A stretch of 20,844 nucleotides of DNA. It comes from a virus. The notes beneath the pieces were generated by a model. That model saw only the letters and a list, made by a program, of their open reading frames with translations, ran no database searches and was not told the DNA's origin. Of this stretch, positions 118 to 14,311 are shown one piece after another; within the stretch, counting starts at the first letter, position 1, and each line of letters starts with the position of its first letter. A program made the position numbers and the translations under genes. The stretch is from positions 1 to 20,844 of IMG/VR virus record IMGVR_UViG_3300033149_000625, one strand, 5' to 3'.

Positions 118-477
118 ATGGTATCAATAGCAGCTTATAAGAATCTAGGCAAAAAAAGCAAGTATCGTAATAAAAAGATTAATGGCTATGATTCTATAAA
201 AGAGTATAGAAGGGCCTGTGTTTTAAAGGATATGGAGAAACTGGGATTAATTACGCACCTAAAAGAACAACAATCATTTGTTTTGCTAGAGTCATTTACT
301 GATAATCAAGGCAATAAAGAAAGAGGTATCACTTATAAAATGGATTTTACCTATTTTGATACTCATAAAAATTATCTAGTCGCTGAGGATGTCAAGGGTT
401 TTAGAACATCGGTTTATACAATGAAAAGAAAGATGTTTAAAAAGCTATATCCTCAATATGTGTTTATTGAGAGTTAA
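118..477 (+). CDS. DUF1064 family protein, PD-(D/E)XK nuclease-like
   Basis: 119 residues. The protein starts with a Lys/Arg-rich stretch (about 8-20), then has YDSIKEYRR (24-32), a beta region ending ITYKMDFTYF (71-80), and the strong motif VAEDVKGFRT (88-97). Known: DUF1064 proteins of phages and prophages share this order (SxxEA-like helix, YxxDFxY, VxEDVKG) and fit the PD-(D/E)XK endonuclease/resolvase fold. Here Asp76, Glu90/Asp91 and Lys93 would be the metal-binding and catalytic residues. It follows the SSB gene by 2 bp, which fits a role in replication or recombination. The substrate is not known; a Holliday-junction-like activity is only a guess. Its TAA overlaps the stop codon of the opposing late operon by 4 bp. 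Confidence 0.8.
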   Translation: MVSIAAYKNLGKKSKYRNKKINGYDSIKEYRRACVLKDMEKLGLITHLKEQQSFVLLESFTDNQGNKERGITYKMDFTYFDTHKNYLVAEDVKGFRTSVYTMKRKMFKKLYPQYVFIES

Positions 478-1337
478 ACTGGCCCACCGTCCGAGAAATT
501 ATTTGTATAAGTATCGTTTTCTAGCGAATCTCTACCAGCTATAACAGTAGGATTAGTGCCAGTATATTTAGTTGTCCCGAATCCTATTGTTCCATCATCA
601 AAAGTAAAGTCACCAGCTATTGATGCGGCCCCCCAGTTTATATAAATGCTGTCGAGATTTGCAGTACTATATGCATTACTAAAGTTATCAGCCTCCATCA
701 TTTTATAAGGTTCCCATGCGCCATGATCTACATCAGCACTAGTATTCCAGAAGCAAAACTCACCATTTAGCACATTAGATACATCTACATTCTGAGTACC
801 CTCACCATCATATAAAAGTGAATCACGGAAAGCATTAAATAGATTATTAAAATTAGACCATGGCCAAGAAGCTATGCCTCCTATTGTTGGTAGCAATGGA
901 CACGATCTTGCAAAACTAGCTATATTAGTCATTCCAGTCATACTAGAAGCGGCTACATTAAGCTCAATTAAGTTAGAACAACCCCAAAATGGGCTAGCTC
1001 CTGCGCCAAATACTATTGTATCAGTATTTTTTGCCCTAATTAGTTTGTCTTTATCGCCACCGTTGGCGAAGTTAAAGCCAGTGGCAGATCCTAGAATTCT
1101 TATTTCTTTTGATCCAATTGAATCAAAGGTTATCAGGCTATCAGCATCAGAATTAACGACTTTTACTATTTTATTGTCTGTGTCATCAACAACTATGCAG
1201 TTATAAACCCCCCCTGGTATTAGGGGTAGGTCAAATTGATTGTTTGCAGAAGTTCCAGCCTCATCAGTTTTTATTTCAAAAGAGGAAGAAGGCCTATTTA
1301 TATCAGTACCTGCATTAGTAACTAAGGATGTAAACAT
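474..1337 (-). CDS. BspA-like leucine-rich-repeat protein, likely fibre-tip or receptor-binding protein
   Basis: 287 residues; the last gene of the late operon. The N-terminal half carries a beta-rich segment (FDLPLIPGGVYNCIVVDD, about 36-53) followed by ITFDSIGSKEIRILGSATGF. From about residue 110 come irregular leucine-rich repeats with phased Cys/Leu/Phe: SPFWGCSNLIELNV, TNIASFARSCPLLPTIGG, NFNNLFNAFRDSLL, and later VSNVLNGEFCFWNTS. Known: BspA-like (DUF285-type) repeats occur in bacterial surface proteins and in tail-fibre-associated phage proteins, where they mediate binding. There is no signal peptide, which fits a virion protein better than a secreted one. It starts 2 bp after the preceding fibre gene. 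The role is inferred from repeats and position; enzymatic function is not indicated. Confidence 0.6.
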   Translation of the reverse strand: MFTSLVTNAGTDINRPSSSFEIKTDEAGTSANNQFDLPLIPGGVYNCIVVDDTDNKIVKVVNSDADSLITFDSIGSKEIRILGSATGFNFANGGDKDKLIRAKNTDTIVFGAGASPFWGCSNLIELNVAASSMTGMTNIASFARSCPLLPTIGGIASWPWSNFNNLFNAFRDSLLYDGEGTQNVDVSNVLNGEFCFWNTSADVDHGAWEPYKMMEADNFSNAYSTANLDSIYINWGAASIAGDFTFDDGTIGFGTTKYTGTNPTVIAGRDSLENDTYTNNFSDGGPV

Positions 1338-1339
1338 TT

Positions 1340-2536
1340 TTAACTAAAATTATATTGTGCTATTCCGTACATATTAGTGCCATCACTAATAAAGCTAATT
1401 ATATCAACTGCGTTAGATCCTGTGCTTAATACTGGCGTGAGTCCAGCAGGAAATTTATATGCAGAGCCAAAACCTATTGTTCTTGATCCTGTTATATCTT
1501 GCTTGATGGTTAAGATATAAGTTGCGCCATCCTTCATGTTAGTTGGATTATCTAGAGTTCTGTTATTTGTTAAGATAACGGATGTTACTTGATTATCATC
1601 TAGGTCCCAAGCTATATTTACTGCATCTGTTAATGTTGATGCATTAAAATTCTGTTGTTTAGTGAATTCTTGAGCAACATTTGTTTTGGCAGTATCTGCA
1701 TCATAAGCTTGAACGCTTGATCCAATATCACCCGACACAAGAGCATTTGCAATCTTAGTAAGATTAGCATCTGTTACAAATCTCTTATTGCTAGAATCTG
1801 TTATATTTGCAGTTGTGGTAGTATCTATATTAGAAACATTTCCTAAGCCCACATCGCCTTTTACTAATGCTAGATTAGTTTTGGCTGTTGTTGGGTCGTC
1901 AAAATTATTATTGCAAGTTCTAGAGTCGCTTAATCTAGTGTCATTACCTTCAGCTACATCACCAGCACTAGAGCCAAAGTTTTTATTGAAAGCAGTATTC
2001 TTAGAGAATAACGGCTCTTTTTCTGAGTCAAGTTCATCAATAGCAGCCTGAACAGTAGTTGATGAAATAGAGCCAGCAGCAACATTGGTTATTTGTGAAG
2101 CTGTATAATCACCATTTTGAGAAACTACTGCGCCAGTCCTACTATGCACAGAATTAACAGCATCAGTATTATCTAGCTTGTACCATAAGGCACCGTTATA
2201 TCTTGCTTGATCTCCAACATCAAAAGTAATATTCCCAGATCCTAAATCTTGAGTGCCGCCAGTTGTTACATCATAAGTATCTCCTGCGCTTCCTACTCCA
2301 TCTGCTAAAGATGGGCTATTCGTAGCAGCATCCCATTCACCTTTAAGAGTCGCTACCCCTGCTGGTATCTGTGTTATTGGGACTTGACCACCGCTTCCCA
2401 ATTCAGCTAGTCCATTTGGAACGCCCTTTAGTGATGTCTCTAATTTATCGGCATTAAGGTTGGTGAAATTATCATTTAATTTACCTCTGGTAATTAAGCC
2501 AGATTCACCATTAATTATTTCTTCTATTGTTGCCAT
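1340..2536 (-). CDS. Tail fibre protein
   Basis: 398 residues. The N-terminus (TRGKLNDNFTNLNADKLE) is typical of phage fibre attachment regions. It is followed by a shaft domain of a type common in fibres: LKGEWDAATNSPSLADG, then GTQDLGSGNITFDVGDQARY and YNGALWYKLDNTDAVNSVHS. Repeats typical of trimeric fibre shafts follow: RTGAVVSQNGDYTASQITN, AGDVAEGNDTRLSDSR, VKGDVGLGNVSN. The C-terminal 120 residues form a Ser/Thr/Gly-rich beta region ending in YGIAQYNFS. Its N-terminus differs from that of the fibres at 6320 and 8002, so it probably attaches differently. It starts after a 17-bp gap whose minus-strand sequence is TTAAATAAAAA just before ATG, without a Shine-Dalgarno sequence. Confidence 0.85.
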   Translation of the reverse strand: MATIEEIINGESGLITRGKLNDNFTNLNADKLETSLKGVPNGLAELGSGGQVPITQIPAGVATLKGEWDAATNSPSLADGVGSAGDTYDVTTGGTQDLGSGNITFDVGDQARYNGALWYKLDNTDAVNSVHSRTGAVVSQNGDYTASQITNVAAGSISSTTVQAAIDELDSEKEPLFSKNTAFNKNFGSSAGDVAEGNDTRLSDSRTCNNNFDDPTTAKTNLALVKGDVGLGNVSNIDTTTTANITDSSNKRFVTDANLTKIANALVSGDIGSSVQAYDADTAKTNVAQEFTKQQNFNASTLTDAVNIAWDLDDNQVTSVILTNNRTLDNPTNMKDGATYILTIKQDITGSRTIGFGSAYKFPAGLTPVLSTGSNAVDIISFISDGTNMYGIAQYNFS

Positions 2537-2553
2537 TTTTTATTTAATTTAAG

Positions 2554-2703
2554 TTAATCAATCCAGTTTGCGTTGTCGTTCCAAACTCCGTTGTCGTTCC
2601 AGAATCCAGTTGCTAAGATCCACACGAGCCCTATTCCAGATCCTCCCAAAATATCTGAGGTTGTATCCCTTGTTATATTTGAAGTTATTTCTCTTGTTAT
2701 CAT
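2554..2703 (-). CDS. Small Trp-rich protein, probable tail-tip accessory
   Basis: 49 residues. The ATG overlaps the TGA of the lysozyme gene as ATGA, and it ends 17 bp before the next fibre gene, so it fills what would otherwise be a gap of more than 160 bp. The first part repeats an ITxxIT pattern (MITREITSNITRD) followed by GGSGIG, a short hydrophobic stretch (LVWILATG), then a tandem W-N/D repeat (FWNDNGVWNDNANWID). Short phage proteins with ITRxIT N-termini and W-x-D repeats occur beside fibre genes, but no function is established. The hydrophobic stretch is only about 10 residues, probably too short for a membrane span. I judge it real because of the coupled start and non-random repeats. 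Confidence 0.6.
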   Translation of the reverse strand: MITREITSNITRDTTSDILGGSGIGLVWILATGFWNDNGVWNDNANWID

Positions 2704-3140
2704 AACTCTAATATTCTTTGTTGCAATCTTTTTGCCCTGTTACCTACCTGCCTAAACCATTTACTATCTTCCATCTCAATAGATGCTTTCTTGAAATCTT
2801 TGACATGAATTGCTTGAATGAATTTCTTAAACCCCCTAAAGCGATTAATACCAAGATTAAACATCATATTAGCAATAACTTCTTGTAGTTGATCCCCAAA
2901 ATGGTCAAACCATCCGAACACCTCATGACAATCTTCAATCACTATTTCTATATCTTTCTTAAATAACTCTTCCACTCTTTCTTCACTTATTGGTGCTCCA
3001 ACTGGTAAATTATATTCTTTATTGCCTTTGCGTATTAAATGACCTATCCCGCAAGTTTTCAATCCTAGAGAGTCAAGATAAACTTCATACTTAACGCCCT
3101 CATCTATTTTTAATTGTTTTCTTAGTCTTGACATATTCAT
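2700..3140 (-). CDS. T4-type lysozyme (glycoside hydrolase family 24), endolysin
   Basis: 146 residues, slightly shorter than T4 lysozyme (164). It should hydrolyse the MurNAc-GlcNAc bond of peptidoglycan during lysis. The catalytic triad of the family is present in order: Glu14 in KIDEG, Asp23 in YLDSLG, and Thr29 in KTCGIGHL (the family's T-x-G-x-G-H). The C-terminal lobe shows NMMFNLGINRFRGFKKF (about 92-108) and a basic end with WFRQVGNRAKRLQQRILE. There is no signal peptide or signal-anchor, so release would depend on the holin encoded upstream. Translation may begin at the first ATG or at Met3; AAGGA lies 9 nt before the first ATG, which I therefore prefer. Confidence 0.92.
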   Translation of the reverse strand: MNMSRLRKQLKIDEGVKYEVYLDSLGLKTCGIGHLIRKGNKEYNLPVGAPISEERVEELFKKDIEIVIEDCHEVFGWFDHFGDQLQEVIANMMFNLGINRFRGFKKFIQAIHVKDFKKASIEMEDSKWFRQVGNRAKRLQQRILEL

Positions 3141-3205
3141 AGTTCTATATCCTTAAATAATTCTATTATTATATCTTGATAACTACTATCAAATCCTATT
3201 GACAT
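3137..3205 (-). CDS. Possible 22-residue leader ORF before lysozyme
   Basis: An ATG inside the last codons of the o-spanin gene opens a 22-codon frame that ends in a TGA overlapping the lysozyme ATG (ATGA). The predicted peptide is acidic (start MSIGFDSSYQDI, end KDIEL). The double overlap matches the rest of the operon and would let ribosomes be handed on to the lysozyme gene. It is short enough to arise by chance, and I recognise no family. Treat it as a candidate translational-coupling ORF only. Confidence 0.2.
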   Translation of the reverse strand: MSIGFDSSYQDIIIELFKDIEL

Positions 3206-3390
3206 TTTTCATTAAATTTATATTCGTATAAAGCGATTCTTTCTTTGTAAATTCTTGAAACTTCTTTTGTCTCATTTACTGAAACTATTGGACTCTTGGC
3301 CCAGTTACAAAAACTATCCATCACGATTTTCTTTTTGCAGCCCATCAATAAAGTTATGAAGCTCATCATTATTATAATTCTCAATCGCAT
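3196..3390 (-). CDS. Outer-membrane spanin lipoprotein (Rz1/LysC-like)
   Basis: 64 residues. The N-terminus is a lipoprotein signal (MRLRIIIMMSFITLLMGC) with Cys18 as the likely lipidated residue; Met at position -2 of the lipobox is unusual. The mature part, about 47 residues, contains DSFCNWAKSPI and ends with a Tyr/Asn-rich segment and NEKCQ. Known: LysC-like o-spanins of many Gram-negative phages show DSFCxxxxPI followed by a short helix and a terminal Cys region. Its start lies 77 bp inside the i-spanin gene in another frame, the classic nested Rz/Rz1 arrangement. With the i-spanin it would join inner and outer membranes and fuse them in the last step of lysis. The two mature Cys may form disulfides. 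Confidence 0.75.
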   Translation of the reverse strand: MRLRIIIMMSFITLLMGCKKKIVMDSFCNWAKSPIVSVNETKEVSRIYKERIALYEYKFNEKCQ

Positions 3391-3532
3391 TCTCGACCTT
3401 ATTTGTATTATTATTATCTTTGACTATAATAGCATTTTGCTTATTTATTAAAGCCTGCTTGCCATTTCTCTTACCCCAAAAGTAACCTATAAAAGGCAAA
3501 ATAGCAATTATAAATGTCAATATATTTCTCAT
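3314..3532 (-). CDS. Inner-membrane spanin-like protein (Rz/LysB-like)
   Basis: 72 residues. The N-terminal membrane segment (about 4-19, ILTFIIAILPFIGYFW) is followed by basic KRNGK and a polar Asn/Lys/Glu-rich helical region, ending in DELHNFIDGLQKENRDG. Known: short i-spanins of P2 LysB type have one N-terminal span and a periplasmic coiled coil. The o-spanin gene begins inside this gene, which supports the pairing. At 72 residues it is shorter than lambda Rz (153), so its periplasmic reach is limited. The start overlaps the holin candidate's stop as ATGA. If not a spanin, it would be a small anchor protein, but the nested lipoprotein makes that less likely. Confidence 0.68.
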   Translation of the reverse strand: MRNILTFIIAILPFIGYFWGKRNGKQALINKQNAIIVKDNNNTNKVENAIENYNNDELHNFIDGLQKENRDG

Positions 3533-3777
3533 TTTTTCTTAAAAAAGCCTTTAATTTTATCAACAGATGTTGATCCTACTAACGCAACTCCACTCCATAG
3601 CGTAGTATCTAGCGAGCCATCTATCTTGTCAAACATTGTAAACTGATCTGACATAGCAACGCTAAAACCTTTACCAAAAAGTATCACTTTCCCTATTAAC
3701 GAGTAGGTTATAAGAATAGCTCCTAATAATCGTCTTGATGACTTCTCCCCATCATCGCCTTGTAAAAAATTTATCAT
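3529..3777 (-). CDS. Probable holin
   Basis: 82 residues. It begins with an acidic and basic head (GDDGEKSSRRLL), has a clear membrane segment at about 18-35 (LGAILITYSLIGKVILFG), a polar loop, a weaker apolar segment at about 59-72 (TLWSGVALVGSTSV) and a Lys-rich tail (KGFFKKK). Small size, one or two spans and a charged C-terminus fit holins, and a GxxSSxRLL start is common in a group of two-span phage holins. It lies directly upstream of the spanins and lysozyme. Its start overlaps the previous stop as TAATG. No diagnostic catalytic motif exists for holins, so the call depends on topology and context. Confidence 0.65.
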   Translation of the reverse strand: MINFLQGDDGEKSSRRLLGAILITYSLIGKVILFGKGFSVAMSDQFTMFDKIDGSLDTTLWSGVALVGSTSVDKIKGFFKKK

Positions 3778-4256
3778 TAAAAATTATAACTTAAATTAGT
3801 AAAACAACCATGCCCCAATTTACTAGGCATGACACAACCAAAACCAACTGATATTTTTTTAGTTATTAAATAATCAGTAGACAGTCCATAGCTGATAAAA
3901 TGCTCTTTTCTTGGACTAAACACAGTATTTTTGACCATGGTATTTGTAACAAATCCAGAATATATATATCTTCCATATCTTTTACCTAATTTAAAAATAT
4001 CAGATTTAACCTTACTCTTTACATCTAGGCCATTTTCTAAGCTCCTCTTCTGGCTATGATTAAGCCTATTGGTATAAATACTTGCTACATAGTTCTTATA
4101 TTCCTTGTTATATCCAACAATAATTGCTGGCCTAAACTTTCTTGAATTATAATGCAATTCATCATTAAACGCAAGTGTTGATATGCTTATAATGGGGCCT
4201 GCATTAGCTGATTGGATTATTAGCACTAGACTTATAATCATTAGCAATATCCTCAC
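3777..4256 (-). CDS. Secreted protein, predicted small outer-membrane beta-barrel
   Basis: 159 residues. A clean signal peptide (MRILLMIISLVLIIQSANA, cleavage after ANA) leaves a mature protein of about 140 residues. The mature part contains alternating polar/aromatic strands, such as RPAIIVGYN, YVASIYTNRL, YIYSGFVTNT, FISYGLSTDYL, ISVGFGCVM and CFTNLSYNF. The C-terminal residue is Phe within a strand of alternating pattern, the hallmark recognised by the outer-membrane BAM machinery. Two Cys near the end could form a disulfide. I do not recognise the family. Phage-encoded outer-membrane proteins (for example lambda Lom) can alter the infected host's surface, but placement between fibre and lysis genes leaves the role open. 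The start lies 53 bp inside the upstream gene. Confidence 0.6.
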   Translation of the reverse strand: MRILLMIISLVLIIQSANAGPIISISTLAFNDELHYNSRKFRPAIIVGYNKEYKNYVASIYTNRLNHSQKRSLENGLDVKSKVKSDIFKLGKRYGRYIYSGFVTNTMVKNTVFSPRKEHFISYGLSTDYLITKKISVGFGCVMPSKLGHGCFTNLSYNF

Positions 4257-4533
4257 CTATTTCCTCCCATATTTTAGGTTTATCCAAGTCCAATTTATCA
4301 ATTATTTTTTTCATGTAATAAGCTTGCAAATCAGAATGTCTCTTCTCAGACTCTTTAATCTTTTGGATTTCCTCCTTTAAATAACTAACATCATTTTTTA
4401 AATCATTCACAATATCTTGTAGGTTATTAGTTCTTTTCTCGGATCTCTTATCCTTGCTAGCACTTATTATAGCCATTATTATTGCTATTAAGGCCAGTAC
4501 TGATAATATAAATATATAAGCGGTGTATATCAT
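4204..4533 (-). CDS. Membrane-anchored coiled-coil protein, unknown function
   Basis: 109 residues. One N-terminal membrane span (about 4-24, TAYIFILSVLALIAIIMAII) is followed by a basic patch SKDKRSEKR (25-34). A heptad-rich helix follows (about 37-67, with LQDIVNDLKNDVSYLKEEI), then an amphipathic tail with KIIDKLDLDKPKIWEEI. The basic residues after the span argue for a cytoplasmic C-terminus. Its ATG overlaps the upstream stop as ATGA, and its 3' end overlaps the beta-barrel gene by 53 bp. The layout resembles small phage membrane proteins near lysis genes (antiholin or superinfection-exclusion type), but nothing in the sequence decides the function. Confidence 0.6.
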   Translation of the reverse strand: MIYTAYIFILSVLALIAIIMAIISASKDKRSEKRTNNLQDIVNDLKNDVSYLKEEIQKIKESEKRHSDLQAYYMKKIIDKLDLDKPKIWEEIGEDIANDYKSSANNPIS

Positions 4534-5258
4534 TGATATATTATAAATTCTTTTATTTTATTTAAAATATTATCCTGATCTAAACATGATGATTTGCTCA
4601 TGCTCTTAGCAGATAATAATGTAATTATATATAATACCGTTTTATCTCTACTTATTATTGATGTTAACCAGAGATTATGAAGGTCATTTTCTTTATACCA
4701 GTTAGTACTTTCTACCACACTCCTAATTGATGGATAAAAGAATAACGCAGATAAATCTTGCTTATTGTTTTTGTCCCTTAAATAGAATCTTGATGCCAAT
4801 GTTTGCTCGCCAAGCCTGACAAATAAACCATAAGAATTAACATCAATTTTCTGATCCATCGCATATAATGAAGGATGTATATCTTTTAAATTTACTATAC
4901 AATTTCTATCTTTTTCTCTTGCATCGCAGGCCCTAGCAAGGTAGAATCTACCTAGCCAATGATCCATTAATGGGGGTGCTTTCTCTATATTAATCACACT
5001 TATAGATATTGCGGTTTTATCGCTGCATTTTATTAGTATACTATCTATATACTTAGTCATAGTGTCTGACTCTTTAATAATATTATAGGGCATCTTGTTT
5101 TTATGCTCTTCAACAGCTAGAAAGAAAGTTATGGTCATAGATGTTAATGCTATTGCTAGTATTATAGATTTACCCTTATGTAGCTTTATAGCACTTATTA
5201 ATGTCTTTATTTGTGTTAATGCCTTGATTATGTTTATTATAAGGTTAAGTATCGCCAT
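4530..5258 (-). CDS. Single-span membrane protein with soluble domain, unknown function
   Basis: 242 residues. An amphipathic N-terminus (1-25) and basic KLHKGK lead into one membrane span (about 31-49, SIILAIALTSMTITFFLAV). About 190 soluble residues follow. The Lys-rich flank before the span suggests the soluble domain is periplasmic. It contains beta-like segments (TAISISVINI, YGLFVRLGE, TVLYIITLLSA) alternating with helical ones, and four Cys (78, 111, 120, 225) that could pair in the periplasm. The strand order slightly recalls GAF/PAS-like sensor folds, but I see no defining motif and do not claim it. It sits between a permuted NlpC/P60 enzyme (TAATG overlap) and the coiled-coil membrane protein (ATGA overlap). 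Confidence 0.6.
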   Translation of the reverse strand: MAILNLIINIIKALTQIKTLISAIKLHKGKSIILAIALTSMTITFFLAVEEHKNKMPYNIIKESDTMTKYIDSILIKCSDKTAISISVINIEKAPPLMDHWLGRFYLARACDAREKDRNCIVNLKDIHPSLYAMDQKIDVNSYGLFVRLGEQTLASRFYLRDKNNKQDLSALFFYPSIRSVVESTNWYKENDLHNLWLTSIISRDKTVLYIITLLSAKSMSKSSCLDQDNILNKIKEFIIYQ

Positions 5259-5788
5259 TATTTCCAGATCTCCGCATTTGAATAAATAATATTATGCTTT
5301 TTCAATAATTTCATATATTCTTTTGGTGATATATCGTTAGGATCTATATTGCTTGGCAAATGTCCTAGTTTTTGAGATTTTATAGTACATGCTTCTGAAC
5401 AAAATACATCTGTATTATCTTCATCGGCCCTAAGAAGATCCTCAAATATAGGCCATGTATCTACAGCAGAATTAGTAGCGCCCTTAACATCATATTTTAA
5501 GCCTTTTAGCTCTTTCTCAACTTTCAGCAATGCGATTGGATTAACATATTTACGAACCTTAAAAGCATAAATTTTATTATGCCCTCCTATATCCTCTTTC
5601 CACTTGTCAAGTGTAAGGTGTCTGTATTTAGGCTTTTTAGCTTCACCAACATACACATCGCCGTTTTTAAGGAAGGTACTAGCTACATGATGACACTTTG
5701 ACCAAGTGAATAGATTTATTATCCACTTCAAAGGGTATCTAAAAGTATTGTAAATACTGAATTTTCTTTTTAGAAAGAGTATGTGCAT
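5258..5788 (-). CDS. Permuted papain-fold (NlpC/P60, YiiX-like) hydrolase
   Basis: 176 residues. The motif order is that of circularly permuted NlpC/P60 enzymes: the His motif comes first (CHHVASTF, 32-39, likely catalytic His34) and the Cys motif last (DVFCSEACT, 127-135, likely Cys130 followed by Ser-Glu). Between them lie YVGEAKKP and the beta segment KIYAFKVRKY. Known: this superfamily includes amidases, acyltransferases and cell-wall peptidases. In phages such proteins may process peptidoglycan or lipid. The N-terminus (FRYPLKWIINLFTW) is hydrophobic-amphipathic and could touch the membrane, but is not a standard signal peptide. It lies between the second fibre chaperone and the accessory membrane genes, with TAATG overlaps on both sides. 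Confidence 0.72.
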   Translation of the reverse strand: MHILFLKRKFSIYNTFRYPLKWIINLFTWSKCHHVASTFLKNGDVYVGEAKKPKYRHLTLDKWKEDIGGHNKIYAFKVRKYVNPIALLKVEKELKGLKYDVKGATNSAVDTWPIFEDLLRADEDNTDVFCSEACTIKSQKLGHLPSNIDPNDISPKEYMKLLKKHNIIYSNAEIWK

Positions 5789-6319: not shown

Positions 6320-7525
6320 TTACGCTCTAATTTCTGTTATTGTTATTGATGAGCTTAATGCTCCTCCATATCTCCTGTTACCGCCTGTGCCGTTAAAAGT
6401 TATACCTCCAGATATTCCATTGCCAGCTCTGACTTTAAAATCAATAGTGGATGTTGTGCCTGCAATCATATAATGGGATAACTGACAATTATTAAGAACA
6501 CCTGCATTATTTTCAAACTGACCTGAGCAGGCTAGCGCATCTGTATCTGAATCTTTGAATAAAGCAAGAACTCCATTTACTAAACTGTTTCCTCCTGAAA
6601 TTTGAGCTGATACTTCTATTTTTAATTTACTATTAGCGAATTTAGGTGTTATAGAAAGACTCATATACTGATCACCTTCATTGCTTTGAGGTATTGTATC
6701 ATTATTAGGTATAATAGTAGACCCAGTTGCAACCGCCCCAGTCTCAAAATTTACTGTTTGTAATGCACTATTTAGATCTGCATCTGATTCTAAATTAACT
6801 TGAATCCAGTTTGGTCCCTCGTACACTAGCTCTAAAGAATCAATACTAAACTCAAGCGTGGTATCTTGATTTCTAACTAAAACTATATTTCCACCGCTAG
6901 TGTCATTGTCCAGAACGGTTATTGTGCCATTGACTCCATTATTCTTTAAAAGCAATCTATCACCAACCGAGCCACCAGTTATAACATTTAAAGTATCATC
7001 AACATTACCTTCACCATTTAATCTAATGTATGATCCAGTATAGCTAATAGAACCAGATGAAATAGTTTGAATGATTGGTGGAGTAGTTAGCTTTTGATTA
7101 ATAGTTAAATTGTCAAAAGTACTATTTTCTGGATCATAATACAATTTCCAGTTCACAACATCAGTTAGGGCATTTCCTTCATTATTATCAGTTAAGGATT
7201 TGTAAAGTTTAGCTCCTCCAACCTCTCTTGTAATATCTCCTATATAATAATCAGTTGCAATTTCCCACTCTGGAATACCCTTTTGCATTATGTACGCAAT
7301 TTGACTCGTGTTTATGTAGTTCAATCCCTGAAACTCCTCTACTGCTGGCAGCTCATCACCAGATATAGTAGCATCGTTCCAACCTTCCTCAAAAGCTGCG
7401 TTAGCTTGCAATACATCTAAGTCACTACTTGGAATACCTAAGCCATCTTGCAATGATCCGAATTGTCCGTTGTTAGTTGCATTACCAGCAAATATTTTTT
7501 GATTTTTTCTTACTAAATTTACCAT
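6320..7525 (-). CDS. Tail fibre / receptor-binding protein 1
   Basis: 401 residues. The N-terminal 130 residues are paralogous to the fibre at 8002-9156: QKIFAGNATNNGQFGS, EGWNDATISGDELPAVEE, NYINTSQIAYIMQKGI, then AKLYKSLTDNNEGNALTD and a terminal NWKL. This part probably binds the baseplate. The last block, with its Y, G, LYK and W spacing, looks like a carbohydrate-binding (CBM5/12-like) module. The C-terminal 150 residues (FETGAVATGSTIIPNN, FANSKLKIEVSAQISG, FNGTGGNRRYGGALSSS, ITITEI) match a widespread beta-sandwich tip found in phage and prophage fibres. Its specific chaperone candidate follows 1 bp downstream. Confidence 0.85.
   Translation of the reverse strand: MVNLVRKNQKIFAGNATNNGQFGSLQDGLGIPSSDLDVLQANAAFEEGWNDATISGDELPAVEEFQGLNYINTSQIAYIMQKGIPEWEIATDYYIGDITREVGGAKLYKSLTDNNEGNALTDVVNWKLYYDPENSTFDNLTINQKLTTPPIIQTISSGSISYTGSYIRLNGEGNVDDTLNVITGGSVGDRLLLKNNGVNGTITVLDNDTSGGNIVLVRNQDTTLEFSIDSLELVYEGPNWIQVNLESDADLNSALQTVNFETGAVATGSTIIPNNDTIPQSNEGDQYMSLSITPKFANSKLKIEVSAQISGGNSLVNGVLALFKDSDTDALACSGQFENNAGVLNNCQLSHYMIAGTTSTIDFKVRAGNGISGGITFNGTGGNRRYGGALSSSITITEIRA
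7143..7210. repeat. Near-identical fibre segment, copy 1
   Basis: 68 bp that match 8774-8841 with four mismatches, counted by eye. On the minus strand it encodes the LYKSLTDNNEGN to NWKL block shared by the two fibres. Sequence on both sides diverges much more, so this piece was either recently exchanged between the two fibre genes or is under strong constraint. Confidence 0.85.
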
Positions 7526-8002
7526 TTATATATTTATGTTTTGGTTCTTTAAATAATTTAATGTAAAGTCATATTCTTCAACATCATTTGGCGTAGTCAG
7601 ATTCTTAATGTTTACTATATGGTTATCATAGACAACCCAATTAGTATCGACAATATCCATCATCGCAACGGATAAACTCCTTAGGTCTTCTAGGTCTATT
7701 TCGTTTATAATGCCCTCGTGTATATATATAAATTTAGCGTCCTGAGGTGACAACCCCATCAACACCTTATTATCTAGTTTATTTAATTGCTCTAATATCA
7801 GATCCCTACCAGCTTTAGTCAAAGATAGCGTAATAGTGCCGTTGATTGTCAGCAACCTTAGTTCAGGTGAGCTAAAGTGGTAAATATCTAATGCTGTTAA
7901 TTTCTCAGAGATAACCCCTTGTAGAACATTCGCATTATACTCACTTATTTCATCTGCGGTCAATTCTACATCCTGTCCATTTACCTTTTTATATAAAGTC
8001 AT
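7526..8002 (-). CDS. Putative tail fibre assembly chaperone
   Basis: 158 residues, between the two fibre genes: it starts by TAATG overlap with the stop of the fibre at 8002-9156 and ends directly against the start of the next fibre. The N-terminus MTLYKKVNGQDVELTADEI is of the kind seen in small phage tail-assembly proteins. The middle (LTINGTITLSLTKAGRDLIL) and C-terminal part are mixed helix/strand without a catalytic motif. It does not obviously align with the DUF4376-like protein at 5788-6318, although both follow a fibre gene. I do not recognise a named family; the chaperone role is inferred from context. Confidence 0.55.
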   Translation of the reverse strand: MTLYKKVNGQDVELTADEISEYNANVLQGVISEKLTALDIYHFSSPELRLLTINGTITLSLTKAGRDLILEQLNKLDNKVLMGLSPQDAKFIYIHEGIINEIDLEDLRSLSVAMMDIVDTNWVVYDNHIVNIKNLTTPNDVEEYDFTLNYLKNQNINI

Positions 8003-9156
8003 TATTTTATTCCATAAAGTTTAAAAGTACCATCAAATGTTCCAGCACTAAAGAAAATTTGTATTCCATTTACTGGTTGGGTATTTAAGAAAAATACACC
8101 GTTACCCGAGATTATAACACTACGCCCTGCTGTATTAGCATCATAACTTGCTTGATATGAAATATGTTTATTCTTTAATGATGAGTCTAGCCCATAAATA
8201 TCAATACTGCTATTATATACTGACTGGGCTTGATTTCCTACCTGATTACCACCGCCGTTATCATTCAACACAATCTGACCATCAATATTATCATCATCTG
8301 ATGCATTCCCACCTCCTGTATGCCTGCCTGATAGTGCATATCTATAACCTGTATTTTGCCAAACGCCACCGTTGTCATTAGAAAACCTAATATTAAGATT
8401 CACCATATTATTAGATGGAGTAACGCCACTACAAACCAACTTAAAATCTGAGTAATCAGATAAAGGTAAATTAATAAATTCTATTGCAACCGATCCTGAT
8501 GCTACTTGCGTTTGCAATAAGTCATAACCCAATATTGCATTATGTAACTTCTCAGGAGTTAATGTTGTTGTGTCCTCATTTTCATTGTTAGCCTCTGTCT
8601 GAGTAGAGAGCCTATTTATACCCTCAAGAATTTCAGAAGAATTGTTTAGAATAGAATTGTCTAATTTATCTCCTGAGCCAATCACAGGAATTTCCCCATC
8701 TAAAGACCCAATGTTTTCAAATGCTGCTGTACCAAGACTACCAATAATGCCAATTGTATCTAAATCTATCAATAATTTCCAGTTCACAACATCAGTTAAG
8801 GGATTTCCTTCGTTATTATCAGTTAAGGATTTGTAAAGCTTAACAGTGCCAGTCTCTTTTACTATAGAATTTTCGTAGTATTTTGTGCCTGCATCATATT
8901 CTGCTATGCCCTCTTGAAGTAAATAGGCTATTTGGCTTGTCTCGATATAATGTAAAGCATTTTCTTCTTCCAAAGGCGGTCTTTTATCTCCGCTGATAGT
9001 GGCATCTTGCCAGCCCTGTAAGTACGCTGCTAGACTTTGTAGAACATCCAAATCATCACTTGTGTTTGGTGATAACGCTTGCGCAGACCCGAATTGGCCA
9101 TTCTGTCCACCGTCTTTAGCGAATATCTTTTGTGTTTTTCTTTCAATTTTAGGCAT
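8002..9156 (-). CDS. Tail fibre / receptor-binding protein 2
   Basis: 384 residues. The N-terminal domain (about 1-133) is shared with the fibre at 6320-7525: QKIFAKDGGQNGQFGSAQ, QGWQDATISGDKRPPLEE, HYIETSQIAYLLQEGI, VKLYKSLTDNNEGNPLTD and then NWKL. A short linker contains STQTEANNENEDTTTLTPEK. The C-terminal half (VASGSVAIEFINLPLSDY onwards to FFSAGTFDGTFKLYGIK) is a beta-rich domain of the type ending in FxxGTFxLYGI seen at fibre tips. The different C-terminal tips on similar N-termini suggest that the virion carries, or can swap, two receptor specificities. It overlaps the DUF2612 gene by 8 bp. Confidence 0.85.
   Translation of the reverse strand: MPKIERKTQKIFAKDGGQNGQFGSAQALSPNTSDDLDVLQSLAAYLQGWQDATISGDKRPPLEEENALHYIETSQIAYLLQEGIAEYDAGTKYYENSIVKETGTVKLYKSLTDNNEGNPLTDVVNWKLLIDLDTIGIIGSLGTAAFENIGSLDGEIPVIGSGDKLDNSILNNSSEILEGINRLSTQTEANNENEDTTTLTPEKLHNAILGYDLLQTQVASGSVAIEFINLPLSDYSDFKLVCSGVTPSNNMVNLNIRFSNDNGGVWQNTGYRYALSGRHTGGGNASDDDNIDGQIVLNDNGGGNQVGNQAQSVYNSSIDIYGLDSSLKNKHISYQASYDANTAGRSVIISGNGVFFLNTQPVNGIQIFFSAGTFDGTFKLYGIK
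8774..8841. repeat. Near-identical fibre segment, copy 2
   Basis: The partner of 7143-7210 (68 bp, four mismatches by eye), in direct orientation and in the same reading frame of the paralogous fibre gene. Direct repeats of this length could support homologous exchange or deletion of the genes between them. Confidence 0.85.
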
Positions 9157-9901
9157 CTATGACTTTATCATAAGTTAATATTTCGCCTTCTTTTGTGAAG
9201 CCGTCTGTATAATTTGTAAAACCTGTTATTGTGTTTGGAATTGCTGTTGCATTGTAATTAGTAAATCCAAACATTTTCTTATCTCGCTTTATTAAACCTC
9301 CCAATCCAACCCCCATAGGGCGAGGCAATAAACCCTTAACAAATGCAATAACTGCAAGATTAAGGTTAGGCCCAGTAACAAAATAATATATCTTCATCTT
9401 TTTAGTATCTGAAAGTATTAAATCAGCACCAAAATAGTTAAACAATCCTTCGTCAATTTCACCGTTACTATGATTAGAATTGTTCTGAACAATTCTAAGT
9501 TTCAACATAAATCTATAATCATCATCATTCAGTGCACCTGAGCTAAATATACTGTTATAACTTATGAACCCTCCCGAGTCTGTTAAATAGTTAGCGTAAT
9601 CAGTAAATCCAACTGTCGTATCTGTTCCTAGCGTATCATAAGAGGTCATTCCAAAGAAATCACCTGTTGTATTTATTGAACTAGAAAATCTGTCAGTTCC
9701 AATGTACTTACCCAAGACATCTAGCTGTACACCTACCGCCGATTCTAAATCATAACCATCTTGAACTTGACAAGCTATGTTATCACTTAACAGAGTTCTA
9801 ACATGTAGATCAATAGTAGCCTTAGCTTTCTCAAGCTTGTTATACTGGATTATAAGCAAATTAGTATAATACTCTATTGTACTTTCTAGCTCTATACTCA
9901 T
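9149..9901 (-). CDS. DUF2612 family baseplate protein
   Basis: 250 residues. The first 70 residues match DUF2612: EYYTNLLIIQYNKLEKAKAT, then VQDGYDLESAVGVQLDVLGKYIG. A later block has DDDYRFMLKLRIVQNNSNHS, typical of the region linking to baseplate J. The middle and C-terminal parts contain similar Gly/Tyr/Thr strings (FFGMTSYDTLGTDTTVGFTD, MFGFTNYNATAIPNTITGFT), probably beta-strands that face the fibres. Known: DUF2612 genes follow baseplate J in many simple myoviruses and probably fill the role of the gp48/YmfQ-type protein that joins baseplate and fibre. It overlaps the J gene by ATGA and the fibre gene by 8 bp. Confidence 0.8.
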   Translation of the reverse strand: MSIELESTIEYYTNLLIIQYNKLEKAKATIDLHVRTLLSDNIACQVQDGYDLESAVGVQLDVLGKYIGTDRFSSSINTTGDFFGMTSYDTLGTDTTVGFTDYANYLTDSGGFISYNSIFSSGALNDDDYRFMLKLRIVQNNSNHSNGEIDEGLFNYFGADLILSDTKKMKIYYFVTGPNLNLAVIAFVKGLLPRPMGVGLGGLIKRDKKMFGFTNYNATAIPNTITGFTNYTDGFTKEGEILTYDKVIDA

Positions 9902-11094
9902 AATATAGTTATATCTATTCTAGCATTATCAACAATCCATTTCTCGTCTTTAGTATCAGTATTTAAAAAATCTACATAACTGACCCCATCGTTTGAAATT
10001 TCAACATTTAAAGGAACTCCACCGCCACCAGTTGCATTAATACCATCTTGAGCTACGCAAGTTATCGCTGCTGTGTTGGCTGACTCCCCAATAGTAAAAT
10101 CAAGATTATCAGTTATATATTGCTTTATTCCATCCTCATCAAAACCTTGTGTTGGGGTTAGTTTTTGAATATCAAACCTAATATAAAGCTCTTTTGAGAT
10201 TGGACGATCAAAAAGTATTGTAAAGATACTACCGTTTACTGTTGTAATATCTACGGCTATTGCGCCTTTCATATCACAGCCAGCATTTTTTGTAAAGTAA
10301 ATTGCGTCTGCAATATCTGTATTCGCTCCACCCTCACATATTACCCATATACCGTGAGCTGGTATTCCATCGGCATCAATTACATCTGTGTAATTCTCAT
10401 AAACTCTAGCATCGGTTACACCATCAATATTTAATAAGTTGCCAGTTAGAGAATCTATAAAACCTTTTGCTCTGTTAGCTGTTGATCTAGTTGCTCTTAA
10501 TCTTAACTGCGAGTCTAACTCGCCATCAACCCCGACTTCTAAAACTCCTGTTGAGTTATCAATGTTAGTAACCCCTAGTACGACCGTAACAGGGTTTGTT
10601 ATCGTATTAGGTATTGTTGTAATTGATCCTAAGTCCTTAGCTCTAAAAGTTAAATTATACACGCCTGCACTAGGTGCATTGAAAGTATCCAATAAAATAA
10701 ATTCAGTTCCTGAGTCATCCGCCACCGTGTAACCCACTCCATCAGGATTATTTGCCTCTGCATCTAATCCATCTAGCGTTAGAGAGCGATCAACGGTTAT
10801 TTGTACTTGTTGCTGGGTAAATGTTGCGCCCTGTCTTTGAATACCCAACAAAGAAACCCTTTGATCTAATACAACTCCAATTGCTTGCTCAATATCAAAA
10901 CCAGAGTTAATTTGCTTTATAACCTCCAATAAATCTTCTACAGTTTGAGCATAAAGATTTATTAACTGTCCGTCTGGCGTGTTACTATCTACAATTATAT
11001 CATTGCCATAAATAAGCTTGTAGCCGTCTTCTAGTTTAGTTATTATTTCTTGTATTGTGTCAATGGTTAAACCGTTGGCATCTAATGTACTCAT
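9898..11094 (-). CDS. Baseplate wedge protein J (gp47-like)
   Basis: 398 residues. The family features appear in order: an N-terminal helical part with EIITKLEDGYKLIYG, SNTPDGQLINLYAQTVEDLL and IGVVLDQRVSLLGIQRQGAT; a beta region (YTVADDSGTEFILLDTF); and the diagnostic GVDGELDSQLRLRATRS with KGFIDSLTGNLLNIDGVTDA. The C-terminal part (FDRPISKELYIRFDI, IKQYITDNLDF) is also typical. J is the main wedge component of contractile baseplates. The ATG's first base is the last base of a 31-bp repeat, and no Shine-Dalgarno sequence is visible in front of it. Confidence 0.93.
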   Translation of the reverse strand: MSTLDANGLTIDTIQEIITKLEDGYKLIYGNDIIVDSNTPDGQLINLYAQTVEDLLEVIKQINSGFDIEQAIGVVLDQRVSLLGIQRQGATFTQQQVQITVDRSLTLDGLDAEANNPDGVGYTVADDSGTEFILLDTFNAPSAGVYNLTFRAKDLGSITTIPNTITNPVTVVLGVTNIDNSTGVLEVGVDGELDSQLRLRATRSTANRAKGFIDSLTGNLLNIDGVTDARVYENYTDVIDADGIPAHGIWVICEGGANTDIADAIYFTKNAGCDMKGAIAVDITTVNGSIFTILFDRPISKELYIRFDIQKLTPTQGFDEDGIKQYITDNLDFTIGESANTAAITCVAQDGINATGGGGVPLNVEISNDGVSYVDFLNTDTKDEKWIVDNARIDITIL

Positions 11095-11124
11095 AATGTA
11101 AAAAGTTTTGACATTTTACTTGAC
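11094..11124 (+). repeat. 31-bp repeat, copy A
   Basis: 31 bp identical to 14247-14277 except for C at 11119 against G at 14272. It contains TTGACAT-like direct repeats 12 bp apart and an imperfect inverted repeat with AATGT/ACATT ends. It lies in the 45-bp gap between the gp25-like and J genes, abutting the J start codon. No other copy was noticed in the window. Confidence 0.9.
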
Positions 11125-11148
11125 ATATAAAAAACAGACTTATATATT
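11120..11148 (+). promoter_or_regulatory. Sigma70-like promoter, antisense to tail genes
   Basis: TTGACA at 11120-11125 is a full match to the -35 consensus. After a 17-bp spacer, TATATT at 11143-11148 matches the -10 consensus at five of six positions. It points rightward into the gp25-like and spike genes, which lie on the other strand, and no plus-strand gene follows. It may be a chance match, an antisense promoter, or a relic of a lost cassette like the one at 14312-14910. Confidence 0.45.
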
Positions 11149-11496
11149 AACGCTATCACTAACTGGATTAGTTGAGTAAATAGTTTTTACGCTGTAATTT
11201 ATTGTTAAATTTCTGCTGGTGGAATTAAAATTGAGGTCTAAATTAATGACCTCTGTAACTCCATCAGCTTTTAACATAACTGTTCTTATCTCTTCTCTTA
11301 GTGGTGCAGCTTGTGATCTTTTGGTTAGTCTATTTTTCCAGTCAACGCCTGCTTCAATATCAAAAAAACAATCTCCTTTCCATTCTTGAAGTTTTGTTTT
11401 TAGATTTTGAATAAGTGCTAATTGACTTGACTTGTAAGATGATTTACCTTTTCCAAAAGTCCAATCGTTATTTGCGTCTATTGCTCTAATTATCAT
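11140..11496 (-). CDS. Baseplate wedge protein, gp25/W-like
   Basis: 118 residues. Family features: DWTFGKGKSSY near the N-terminus, ALIQNLKTKLQEWKGDCFFD (27-46), GVDWKNRL (50-57), a helix with PLREEIRTVMLKADGVTEV and a C-terminal beta pair (RNLTINYSVKTIY). Known: gp25-like proteins form the wedge core with J and connect it to the first ring of the sheath. The position between spike and J is the usual one. The gene starts by ATGA overlap with the spike gene; 45 bp separate its end from J. Confidence 0.88.
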   Translation of the reverse strand: MIIRAIDANNDWTFGKGKSSYKSSQLALIQNLKTKLQEWKGDCFFDIEAGVDWKNRLTKRSQAAPLREEIRTVMLKADGVTEVINLDLNFNSTSRNLTINYSVKTIYSTNPVSDSVNI

Positions 11497-12194
11497 TTTA
11501 ATAAACTCCCAACTCTAGTTGATAAAGTTGCTAAATCACTAGCGGTTGTACCATCAATTGGAAGCAGTCCAGAAATGGGGTCAACTGTCTTTAAATTAGT
11601 AATTATTGTAATTAATTCGTCAATAACATCTTTTAGATTCTCTGCTGTATTCTTTAGTTCTAGTTTATCATCTACCACAATAGAACCACCACTTGAATTT
11701 AGCAAGCTTATTTTTGTACTGTCAAGAGAAATCTTATTATTTAAGTAATTTAATTCTGTTGCCTCGTTATTATAGTCTGTAATAAGATTAATCTGGCTCC
11801 TAATACCAACTAAAGCAATGGCATCCGAGAAATCATGAGCCCTCAGTGTATTAGGGCGTTGCACCAATCCATCAACTAACCAATTATCTAAATCTCTGTC
11901 ATTAAAAAACACTAAACAAGTATCGCCTTTATTAATAGGAATAGTTAATCCACCATTAGCACCTTTATTAATAATAGTTGGGCATTTCTCCAATAGTGAA
12001 TAATTAGTTAATATTTCGCCATCTGTTGTATTTCTAACGGATTTATCAACTAGCTTTATGTCTGCTGTTTGTTCATCTGAATAAAATGCCTCAACAATAC
12101 CTACTCTATGGCAATTAAATTCATACAATAAATCTTCGATAGCTCCGTCAATTACATCTTCTAATTCTGGCTCTGTTCTTCTTCCTTTGCTCAT
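11493..12194 (-). CDS. Gp138-type membrane-puncturing spike protein
   Basis: 233 residues. The N-terminal domain (about 1-125) shows an OB-like pattern: HRVGIVEAFYSDEQTADIKL, LEKCPTIINKGANGGLTIPI, then GDTCLVFFNDRDLDNWL and RAHDFSDAIALVGI. This is the signature of the Gp138 N-terminal domain of simple contractile tails. A short beta-helix-like segment follows (LNYLNNKISLDSTKISLLN, GGSIVVDDKLEL), which would form the trimeric needle shaft, and then a C-terminal helical tail. The protein would sit at the tip of the tail tube and pierce the outer membrane. I see no PAAR-type tip or HxH metal motif. Confidence 0.85.
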   Translation of the reverse strand: MSKGRRTEPELEDVIDGAIEDLLYEFNCHRVGIVEAFYSDEQTADIKLVDKSVRNTTDGEILTNYSLLEKCPTIINKGANGGLTIPINKGDTCLVFFNDRDLDNWLVDGLVQRPNTLRAHDFSDAIALVGIRSQINLITDYNNEATELNYLNNKISLDSTKISLLNSSGGSIVVDDKLELKNTAENLKDVIDELITIITNLKTVDPISGLLPIDGTTASDLATLSTRVGSLLK

Positions 12195-13096
12195 ACTCCT
12201 TTTAATCCTCCTAGTAATTTATTGCCAATAAATAAATTTAATGCTGTTTTGCAGTCTCCATTGACCGCTCCCGATATGACACCACTATGTCTTAATCCCA
12301 TAACCTTATATTGACCGTCAAACTTTGGGTTAAATTTTGATTGAACTTCTGCCAGTTGTCCAACTTGTATTCTTGGCTCAAAAATCATATCCATTACTAG
12401 GTCCGTGCCCTGCCTCTGTGGAGTCCCTAATAGTCCTGAGTCAGCATTTATTAATGGCACTTTTCCGCCTGTGGTTTTTATATATTCATTTTCATTTAAG
12501 ATATTAACTTTCTCAAGATCAATAAAAACCTCATCCTTGTAATTCTTCTTCAATAAGTAAAAGTTGTTGCCATTCAAGGCTGTTGATGTTTTGGATGCCC
12601 CTTGAATATCGCCAACTTTACCTTCTGTTGTTCCAGTTATGCCTGCTATTATGGTTTTAGCTATATCTTTAAAGCTTGTGCCGCCTGCTACTGTCTCATT
12701 TATATTTGAGTTATAGGCACCTAACGAGCCATCTTGAGCGTTAATATAGGTTATAACATCTGCACCTTGTCTATATGAATAAGCTTCAAGTAAATAGCCT
12801 GTAAATATTGTTGATAAATCATCATCTCTATTTAATGCAGTTTCGTACCCAGCTTGCAAAATAACTTTCTTTCTATTACCTGATACATCATTAATGCTAA
12901 ACCTATTCTGAAATATTAAACTCCTGTTAGTCTCGCTAAGGTTATAAACCCTAAAAGTCGCACTGTTTAAACTGCTCTGCGTGCTTCTAGCGACATCTAG
13001 CTCTAGGGTTAAAGGGCTTCTTATTTCAATAGCCTGCTCTTGCCCCTGTGCTGTGTTAATTTGAACTGTTAATTTATATCTTCTTTGGAACTTCAT
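12191..13096 (-). CDS. Baseplate hub protein, gp27-like
   Basis: 301 residues. The N-terminal strand pattern (RRYKLTVQINTAQGQEQAIE) and PLTLELDVARSTQSSLNSAT followed by FRVYNLSETNRSLIFQ match hub proteins of small myoviruses, where a tube-like fold uses VxNLSExTR motifs. Then come KKVILQAGYETALN, STIFTGYLLEAYSYRQGADV and ITYINAQDG, all characteristic. The C-terminal half (MDMIFEPRIQVGQLAEVQS, GQYKVMGLRHSGVISG) continues the family pattern. It would form the trimeric hub under the tube and hold the spike. It is coupled by ATGA overlap to the plug gene upstream and the spike gene downstream. Confidence 0.85.
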   Translation of the reverse strand: MKFQRRYKLTVQINTAQGQEQAIEIRSPLTLELDVARSTQSSLNSATFRVYNLSETNRSLIFQNRFSINDVSGNRKKVILQAGYETALNRDDDLSTIFTGYLLEAYSYRQGADVITYINAQDGSLGAYNSNINETVAGGTSFKDIAKTIIAGITGTTEGKVGDIQGASKTSTALNGNNFYLLKKNYKDEVFIDLEKVNILNENEYIKTTGGKVPLINADSGLLGTPQRQGTDLVMDMIFEPRIQVGQLAEVQSKFNPKFDGQYKVMGLRHSGVISGAVNGDCKTALNLFIGNKLLGGLKGV

Positions 13097-13434
13097 TTGT
13101 TATAAAAATCAGTTTCTACTTGTTCAACCTCTGCCTCTGTTAATAAAAACATTCGCACCCTATCAGTTGAGAAGTCATCAATAAATAATGGTTCGCTTAA
13201 ATCATCTGTTAAAATACTAATACCAAAAGGGATGATATTTTGATAACTTCTTAATATATTCGTCCCAGTTACTAACCTTGCACCATTTAAGATAAAATCC
13301 CCAAAAGTAATATTATAAAACCAGCCTTGTTGTTGATCGCTATATTCAAGCACTAGCTCGAAGTTTTGATTGTCCTCTGTTACAACATCAAATCTTTGTT
13401 TTGGATCTTGTGATATTTCTGTTATCTGTTTCAT
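13093..13434 (-). CDS. Baseplate hub plug protein, Pam3 gp18-like
   Basis: 113 residues. The beta-rich pattern includes QRFDVVTEDNQNFELVLEYS, GWFYNITFGDFILNGARLV, TNILRSYQNIIPFGISIL and a C-terminal FSTDRVRMFLLTEAEV. Known: cyanophage Pam3 gp18-type plug proteins show the same order (NFxLxLxY, WxxxI, GxxLV, LLxxxE) and close the tube just above the spike. It lies between the Dit-like and hub genes as expected. Its start is 7 bp after the upstream stop, and its end overlaps the hub gene as ATGA. Confidence 0.75.
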   Translation of the reverse strand: MKQITEISQDPKQRFDVVTEDNQNFELVLEYSDQQQGWFYNITFGDFILNGARLVTGTNILRSYQNIIPFGISILTDDLSEPLFIDDFSTDRVRMFLLTEAEVEQVETDFYNK

Positions 13435-13441
13435 CTGATTA

Positions 13442-14239
13442 TTAATTAATTTTTAAAAAAGATTTACCGCCTTCTTTTAGATCAAATAAAACTGATGAAT
13501 TCCTTTGTGTCCCATTTGCCGTCCCTTGGTCAACTTCTTCTGCGCTCTGATTCGTTAGTCTGCCTTGGGTTTCCTTAATGTCAAAATCAACTAATTCAGT
13601 TGTTGTAATTCTAAACTCTTTTAATGTTACTGCAAAATCAGTAATATATTTATTATCTCCTTGTGTTGTGATGATGTTTTCAATAGCATAATCACTTAAA
13701 AAGCCAAAAGGTGTTTCAACTGAAACAAGTTGTTTAGCACTATAAAGAGCTTTAAAGAAATTGTAAGCTCTAGCTTGGTTGTTATCTGGTGGATTTAATT
13801 CTTTGTATGCTTGATATAAATCAACCCCTGTTCCTATTGTTTGATCAATTGAGTCAACAACACTTACTTTATTAGCTTCTATTGTTCTATTTAATTGTGT
13901 CGCAAATCCTGTTACAACTGGAATATAGCTATTAATTATTGTTAGCTTCTCCGCAAGCTCTGTTACTTCTGATTTAGCACCTGCCTGTCTGTCTACTAAC
14001 TCACCAACAAAACCCCTTAATGTAAATCTTTCTGGCTTTATAGCAATATGATCTTGCCTTGTTGAATTGTCTTCTACAAAGTGATCCGTTATCTCTGCTT
14101 GTAGCTCTGATTTATGTTCTTCAAAAATATCAAACTCAAAGCCTGCAATGCCTAAGTTTACAACTGGCGAGACAACATATTTATTTACTAGATTGTTTGT
14201 TATTTCTGCTGTTTCTAGCGTGTTAAAATCTTTAGTCAT
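13442..14239 (-). CDS. Dit-like tail/baseplate protein
   Basis: 265 residues. Residues about 30-80 carry the Dit-like N-terminal signature: GFEFDIFEEHKSELQAEITD, then HFVEDNSTRQDHIAIKPERF and TLRGFVGELV. A helical region follows, then a second beta domain (QLVSVETPFGFLSDYAIENI, DFAVTLKEFRITTTEL). The C-terminal 50 residues are polar and probably flexible. Known: in simple myoviruses this protein forms the ring at the tail end, after the tape-measure gene. Here the moron (14312-14910) separates it from the tape-measure gene. A 31-bp repeat ends 8 bp before its ATG, and no Shine-Dalgarno sequence is visible. Confidence 0.8.
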   Translation of the reverse strand: MTKDFNTLETAEITNNLVNKYVVSPVVNLGIAGFEFDIFEEHKSELQAEITDHFVEDNSTRQDHIAIKPERFTLRGFVGELVDRQAGAKSEVTELAEKLTIINSYIPVVTGFATQLNRTIEANKVSVVDSIDQTIGTGVDLYQAYKELNPPDNNQARAYNFFKALYSAKQLVSVETPFGFLSDYAIENIITTQGDNKYITDFAVTLKEFRITTTELVDFDIKETQGRLTNQSAEEVDQGTANGTQRNSSVLFDLKEGGKSFLKIN

Positions 14240-14246
14240 AATTTAA

Positions 14247-14277
14247 TAATGTAAAAAGTTTTGACATTTTAGTTGAC
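14247..14277 (+). repeat. 31-bp repeat, copy B
   Basis: The partner of 11094-11124 with one mismatch (G at 14272). It lies between the divergent starts of the Dit-like gene and the moron. After the shared 31 bp the two sites differ: copy B continues into the dyad described at 14273-14297, copy A into an AT-rich stretch. Confidence 0.9.
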
Positions 14278-14301: not shown

Positions 14302-14311
14302 GTAATTTTTA

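Follow-up and report, generated by a model that had tools for sequence, protein, structure and literature searches.

The gene at positions 3777–4256 on the minus strand of the window, the whole stretch of 20,844 nucleotides, encodes a protein whose modelled structure supports its assignment to the class of small 8-stranded outer membrane β-barrels with an OmpX/OmpA/NspA fold. The window is a linear record of 20.8 kb from an environmental sample, which belongs to a bacterial virus and which contains genes of a contractile tail (tail sheath and baseplate). Four points emerge directly from the computational analysis, namely that the gene is coding, that its product carries a signal peptide, that a barrel is predicted, and that the gene is placed in the lysis cassette, where its start and its stop overlap the neighbouring genes. 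As to its function, we tentatively favour a late protein of the outer membrane surface that might mask the host surface against re-adsorption.

Position of the predicted barrel gene among the lysis genes

The open reading frame is a genuine gene. Direct reading of the minus-strand letters around its start (GGGAGGAAATAGGTG) places a GGAGG Shine-Dalgarno motif 6 nucleotides ahead of the GTG codon, and GGGAGGAAATAG followed by GTG constitutes a good ribosome-binding site of normal spacing. Residues 1–19 (MRILLMIISLVLIIQSANA), as read from the sequence and with a heuristic, form a typical Sec signal peptide, which ends with A-N-A and is followed by GPIIS, and the protein terminates with SYNF and thus with a Phe. 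Homologues of the barrel are found at three further loci, termed L028, L033 and L035. On the minus strand of the window, the following features are encountered in the direction of transcription:

5258..5788 (minus): 176-aa protein with a His...Cys order; no Pfam match
4530..5258 (minus): 242-aa protein, transmembrane segment at the N-terminus; also contains a domain in which cysteines are conserved
4204..4533 (minus): 109-aa protein, one N-terminal transmembrane segment followed by a coiled-coil-like tail rich in charge; 53-nucleotide overlap with the barrel gene
4257..4268 (minus): Shine-Dalgarno site, GGAGG within GGGAGGAAATAG, read directly from the sequence; located ahead of the GTG codon and within the upstream gene, which overlaps the barrel gene
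3777..4256 (minus): gene of the predicted small 8-stranded outer membrane β-barrel, 159 aa, GTG start; signal peptide at residues 1–19; Pfam OMP_b-brl matched in two homologues
3529..3777 (minus): holin-like membrane protein of 82 aa with homologues in L033 and L035; its start codon and the stop codon of the barrel gene have one base in common (TAATG)
3314..3532 (minus): Rz-like inner-membrane spanin candidate, from its place and the overlap with Rz1; weak PHROGs match to Rz (E 0.2)
3196..3390 (minus): Rz1-like outer-membrane lipoprotein spanin with an LLMGC lipobox; overlaps Rz; PHROGs match to an Rz-like spanin (E 6.7e-5)
2700..3140 (minus): endolysin, a phage lysozyme (Pfam PF00959, E 9.6e-10)

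We infer the role of the 82-aa protein as holin from its size, its transmembrane segments and its location, and the 176-aa protein might, judging by its residue order, be a permuted papain/NlpC-type enzyme. The barrel protein itself does not share the features of a spanin, as it combines a signal-peptidase-I-type site with a barrel and lacks a lipobox, and a separate Rz1-like spanin is encoded nearby. The strand of the barrel gene is also that of the tail and lysis genes, and promoter-like sites occur at chance level (23 found compared to a mean of 23.6 in shuffled sequences). The shared strand, the TAATG junction and the chance-level promoter sites thus argue for late co-expression of the barrel with its neighbours.

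The order of genes is kept at the other loci, with changes in the identity of the parts. L028 contains a 91-aa homologue of the 109-aa protein but differs downstream, where it encodes a 48-aa transmembrane protein, a 61-aa protein and a lipoprotein-like product of 94 aa, with a DUF5675 protein at the place that lysozyme occupies in the window. In L033 and L035, the order is maintained with an endolysin of another kind, which is M15-peptidase-like in L033, the one locus of the two whose endolysin was scanned. Both loci harbour proteins of 125–144 aa with similar architecture in place of the 109-aa protein and proteins of 203–224 aa in place of the 242-aa protein, the latter also of similar architecture and without significant homology. 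A common origin of the 242-aa and 109-aa proteins with the respective 203-aa and 125-aa proteins was considered but found no support in a profile comparison, which assigned a probability of about 1% (E 0.043 and 0.052), and the likeness is a resemblance in architecture and position. Profile searches of the PDB with the 242-aa and 203-aa proteins gave nothing useful, neither protein had a relative in the phage collection, and scanning with the 203-aa protein recovered only the two records already known.

Predicted fold and family membership

The earlier note had proposed a small outer membrane barrel next to the lysis genes, and the structure prediction supports this. When modelled by AlphaFold2 with a four-sequence alignment as input, the window protein folds into 8 strands that follow the signal helix (mean pLDDT 68.9, pTM 0.62), although only one of five models was good and the other four scored 55 to 39. 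The prediction is more uniform when the L035 homologue is placed first, where all five models score 74–80 (best 79.6, pTM 0.67) and the barrel shows eight main strands and two short ones in loops. Structural alignment of the window model with VIA-align yielded NspA as best match (Z 15.2, rmsd 2.8, 136 residues aligned), accompanied by OprF (Z 14.4, rmsd 2.9, 120 aligned) and OmpA (Z 14.3, rmsd 3.2, 142 aligned), and the L035 model aligns with OmpA (Z 14.7, rmsd 3.1, 154 aligned). In Foldseek, Ail, OmpA and OmpX rank highest with Ail leading (E 1.4e-4), whose structural alignment to the window model gives a Z of 11.6 at an rmsd of 3.2 over 139 residues. Soluble barrels (YceI-like) and photosystem subunits, with Z of about 9, were set aside as they fall below the top group of matches. 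A soluble periplasmic fold, the outcome that would have spoken against a barrel, did not appear.

The features that had originally suggested a barrel have fared unequally. The signal peptide and the C-terminal Phe are both present, whereas the alternation of strands does not stand out, as 1480 of 2000 shuffles scored as high as the window protein in a simple measure of hydropathy alternation over the predicted strands, and L035 exceeds its shuffles only weakly (216 of 2000 as high). Alternating strands judged by eye are therefore weak evidence and carry little weight alone, and the case for a barrel is carried by the fold prediction and the homologues. The C-terminal β-signal with its terminal aromatic residue is found throughout the four-sequence alignment, where the chains end with YNF or YLF and Y157 and F159 are invariant. 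The consensus of this signal also includes a Gly, which is found only in L033 and L035. The window protein contains two cysteines, C141 and C151 on strands 7 and 8, which are missing at the equivalent columns of L028, L033 and L035, and a disulphide bridge between them may possibly have been gained in the lineage of the window.

At the sequence level, the family reaches no cut-off in Pfam, NCBIfam or PHROGs. The Pfam model OMP_b-brl (PF13505) is matched by two of the four family members at E<=0.01 (best 2.7e-5), albeit under the gathering score, with L028 at 24.8 bits compared to a cut-off of 28.7 and L033 at 18.2 bits. The window barrel does not match this model at E<=0.01, and no other Pfam family, including the Ail/Lom model, is matched by any of the four scanned members at the same threshold. 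The window protein by itself gave no match in Pfam, PHROGs or NCBIfam, and a sequence search of the PDB returned only weak hits at chance level.

The claim that such proteins are rare in late lysis regions can be maintained in part. In a survey of 117 sequences with 4988 open reading frames, 1614 of which encode 80–260 aa, a strict filter for a signal peptide and C-terminus was passed by 13, and the seven that were judged convincing all belong to the barrel family. Conversely, the viral structure library is rich in small outer membrane barrels encoded by phages, among which the window model finds 17 and the L035 model 29 matches at E<=0.001, and nmpC offers a precedent for a barrel gene beside lysis genes. 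The best match of the L035 model, BFVD entry A0A6J5LNL8 (TM 0.83/0.79, 23% identity, E 1.6e-12), is annotated as 'Outer membrane protein beta-barrel' and, like A0A6J5LN35, originates from uncultured Caudovirales. These small phage barrels resemble the window family and are probably its true relatives, with a likeness at the level of the barrel protein. Small outer membrane barrels of phages are thus a known kind, with the present family itself absent from the libraries searched, and it is the position in a lysis operon with coupled start and stop codons that is unusual.

Persistence of the barrel in a variable lysis block

The relatives of the virus were reached via its tail sheath and baseplate proteins and not via the barrel protein. 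The barrel gene is matched in five of these 18 records (G001–G005; E 7.6e-52 to 1.9e-5), in each case in an open frame where internal stops are absent. The five IMG/VR phage records, in which the homologues occupy the same place, represent three lineages besides the window because G001, G002 and G003 are near-identical among themselves, with 53–55% identity to the window barrel compared to 25–29% for G004 and 23–26% for G005. The remaining 13 records (G006–G018) contain no match, an absence that is uninformative wherever a record stops before the lysis genes, as does G012. Substitution rates indicate purifying selection on the barrel frame, with a dS of 0.69 and a dN of 0.195 between L033 and L035, and values of 1.32 and 0.41, respectively, between the window and L028.

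Additional searches did not expand the family. The window barrel found no relatives in the IMG/VR pattern look-up or among INPHARED phages, a profile search of genome contigs gave 83 pattern matches and no relative, and queries with the profile, L033 or L035 added no new records. A lysozyme-based scan, in which 80 loci were kept of 584 relatives, provided no additional members either; weak matches (E 0.25–0.48) were judged to be chance, the one in G012 lying in a 248-aa gene that adjoins the baseplate gene.

Among the ten genes located at 474–5788, the barrel alone is matched by tblastn in all of G001, G002, G004 and G005, whereas the lysozyme, Rz and 176-aa papain-like genes are matched in none of the four. 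Since the tail genes at 9149–19712 are 78–96% identical between the window and G001 compared to 55% for the barrel, and since the lysis genes are matched unevenly, the lysis block appears to be either fast-diverging or exchanged, with the barrel as its most persistent component. The barrel would so have been retained while the lysis parts around it were swapped.

Variation is also seen in other parts of the record. The fibre-like proteins at 6320–7525 and 8002–9156 (minus) align with those of G001/G002 over about 34% of their length (61–62% identity) and with those of G004/G005 over 34–79%, with unlike remainders, a pattern that would be typical of an anchor with an exchanged tip. A 100-aa secreted protein is encoded on the opposite strand within the block of tail genes (14608–14910, plus); it shares mainly its signal peptide with G001/G002 (82% over 17 aa), where the mature parts are unlike, and it weakly matches G005 (E 0.003). 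Similar secreted proteins of about 110 aa, likewise on the strand opposite to the barrel, are found in G004 and G005, and the gene appears to be a rapidly changing accessory gene with a secreted product. It is adjoined by a 99-aa open reading frame (14312–14611, plus) with no Pfam match and no clear relative in the eight records tested. Where the window has other genes, L028 encodes a 587-aa protein (17777–19540 of that locus) with many 'W..S.V..M..MF..S.FNQPI'-like repeats, presumably of the BspA/DUF285 type, which is 32% identical to the window reading frame 474–1337 over about half of the latter.

Candidate roles at the outer membrane

In the masking role that we consider possible, the barrel would be made late, along with the holin, spanins and endolysin, exported by Sec and inserted by the BAM machinery of the host. 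Its outward face, with conserved basic residues (R64, K70 and R71, with K117 nearby), would bind LPS or a surface protein and alter the surface of the host late in infection, such that neither progeny nor related phages would be wasted on the dying cell or its fragments. The outcome would be superinfection exclusion or protection from debris, as for T5 Llp, Cor or the Lc/NmpC porins. This proposal draws on a stretch comprising strand 3 and the outer loop 2, where 8 of 25 residues are invariant compared to 15 of 115 over the remainder of the mature protein (Fisher p 0.034), a weak result in light of four sequences that effectively form three groups and of a stretch that was picked after inspection. 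The stretch carries R64, K70 and R71, and its loop would point outward because the N-terminus of outer membrane barrels is, as a general rule, periplasmic. The outer parts of Ail and OprH, both of which are found among the fold matches of the window model, are also basic and bind LPS, and this correspondence favours a late protein that acts at the surface. PMC9586334 proposes that phage outer membrane proteins block adsorption to infected cells and to fragments of lysed cells, and prophage proteins that hinder access to outer membrane receptors are covered in a review (PMC10883804). Several observations count against masking. The blocking of a specific receptor would predict variable outer loops, whereas loop 2 belongs to the more conserved regions of the protein, and the tips of the tail fibres differ from those of G001, with an alignment of fib401 and fib384 that covers only 34%. 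Moreover, the timing of the barrel looks late, unlike that of superinfection-exclusion proteins, which PMC9586334 describes as early-made.

The main rival, which we regard as doubtful, is an accessory role in lysis, where the late barrel would loosen or stress the outer membrane or perturb the packing of LPS and thereby speed spanin disruption and release, possibly together with the upstream transmembrane/coiled-coil protein. Both in the window and in each of the three further lineages, the barrel gene lies between the gene of this protein and the small holin-like membrane gene, with overlapping start and stop. This location would fit such a role, as would the persistence of the barrel where holin, spanins and endolysin are replaced. 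A further parallel is provided by CsgG of the marine methylophage Melnitz, a phage outer membrane barrel protein for which a role in the regulation of lysis is suggested by the authors of PMC9004378, although CsgG is an oligomeric curli secretion pore of a different fold class. However, disruption of the outer membrane already has its own proteins in the Rz/Rz1-like spanin pair. Barrels of 8 strands are not known to have an open pore, which also counts against this role, and our search of open-licence PMC papers found no report of a lysis system that uses, or is coupled to, such a barrel. It is unlikely that the protein is a moron of the Lom/Ail type that alters the surface of a lysogen, despite its fold relation to Ail and OmpX and the location of lambda lom beside tail gene J and of nmpC beside the DLP12 lysis genes, as none of six records, which are fragments, matched an integrase, and the barrel gene is co-directional and overlapping with lysis genes at a chance-level promoter signal, whereas nmpC is found on the opposite strand. 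We consider it quite unlikely that the barrel is an enzyme with lipid A or phospholipid as its substrate, a reading prompted by its similarity to PagL (Z 13.5, rmsd 2.7, 120 aligned) and PagP (Z 12.9, rmsd 3.4, 134 aligned), which are 8-stranded barrels of similar size. The active site of PagL consists of a conserved His-Ser-acid arrangement, whereas the invariant positions of the four sequences include neither His, Asp nor Glu, and a Ser only at S26 on strand 1. This weakens the enzyme reading, although shifts may be hidden at 25% identity. There is also no Pfam match to the PagL or PagP family, and a literature search for PagL-like phage enzymes brought up nothing on phage-encoded barrels. 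Finally, it is conceivable, if very improbable, that the transmembrane/cysteine protein, the transmembrane/coiled-coil protein, the barrel and the holin form one envelope-spanning device for the timing of lysis, where the barrel would sense a surface event such as the state of LPS or a superinfecting phage and gate the holin via the coiled-coil protein; if true, this would be a system of lysis inhibition with an outer membrane sensor, unlike rI/rIII of T4.

The window barrel finds counterparts in known phage proteins, each of which differs from it in some respect. NmpC of the DLP12 prophage is encoded next to a holin-lysozyme-Rz/Rz1 cassette (essD-rrrD-rzpD/rzoD), as is the window barrel, but on the strand opposite to the lysis genes, in contrast to the co-directional gene with coupled start and stop described here. 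Moreover, NmpC and the Lc porin of phage PA-2 are large 16-stranded proteins instead of 8-stranded barrels. Lom of lambda is, together with Ail and OmpX, a small 8-stranded outer membrane barrel and as such similar to the window protein, and lom is a phage gene, yet it adjoins tail gene J outside the lysis cassette. T5 Llp is a lipoprotein and not a barrel, and Cor is likewise a lipoprotein. For both of these phage-encoded outer membrane proteins, the proposed role in PMC9586334 is the same blocking of adsorption that we propose for the window barrel, with Llp being made early, in contrast to a predicted barrel that looks late.

Collectively, small outer membrane barrels of phages are known, and for few of them has a function been tested. 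A barrel that is encoded in a lysis cassette, whose gene reads into that of a holin-like protein and that persists amid the apparent exchange of lysis genes around it, provides a compact test case for whether such proteins protect the progeny from debris or assist in opening the outer membrane.
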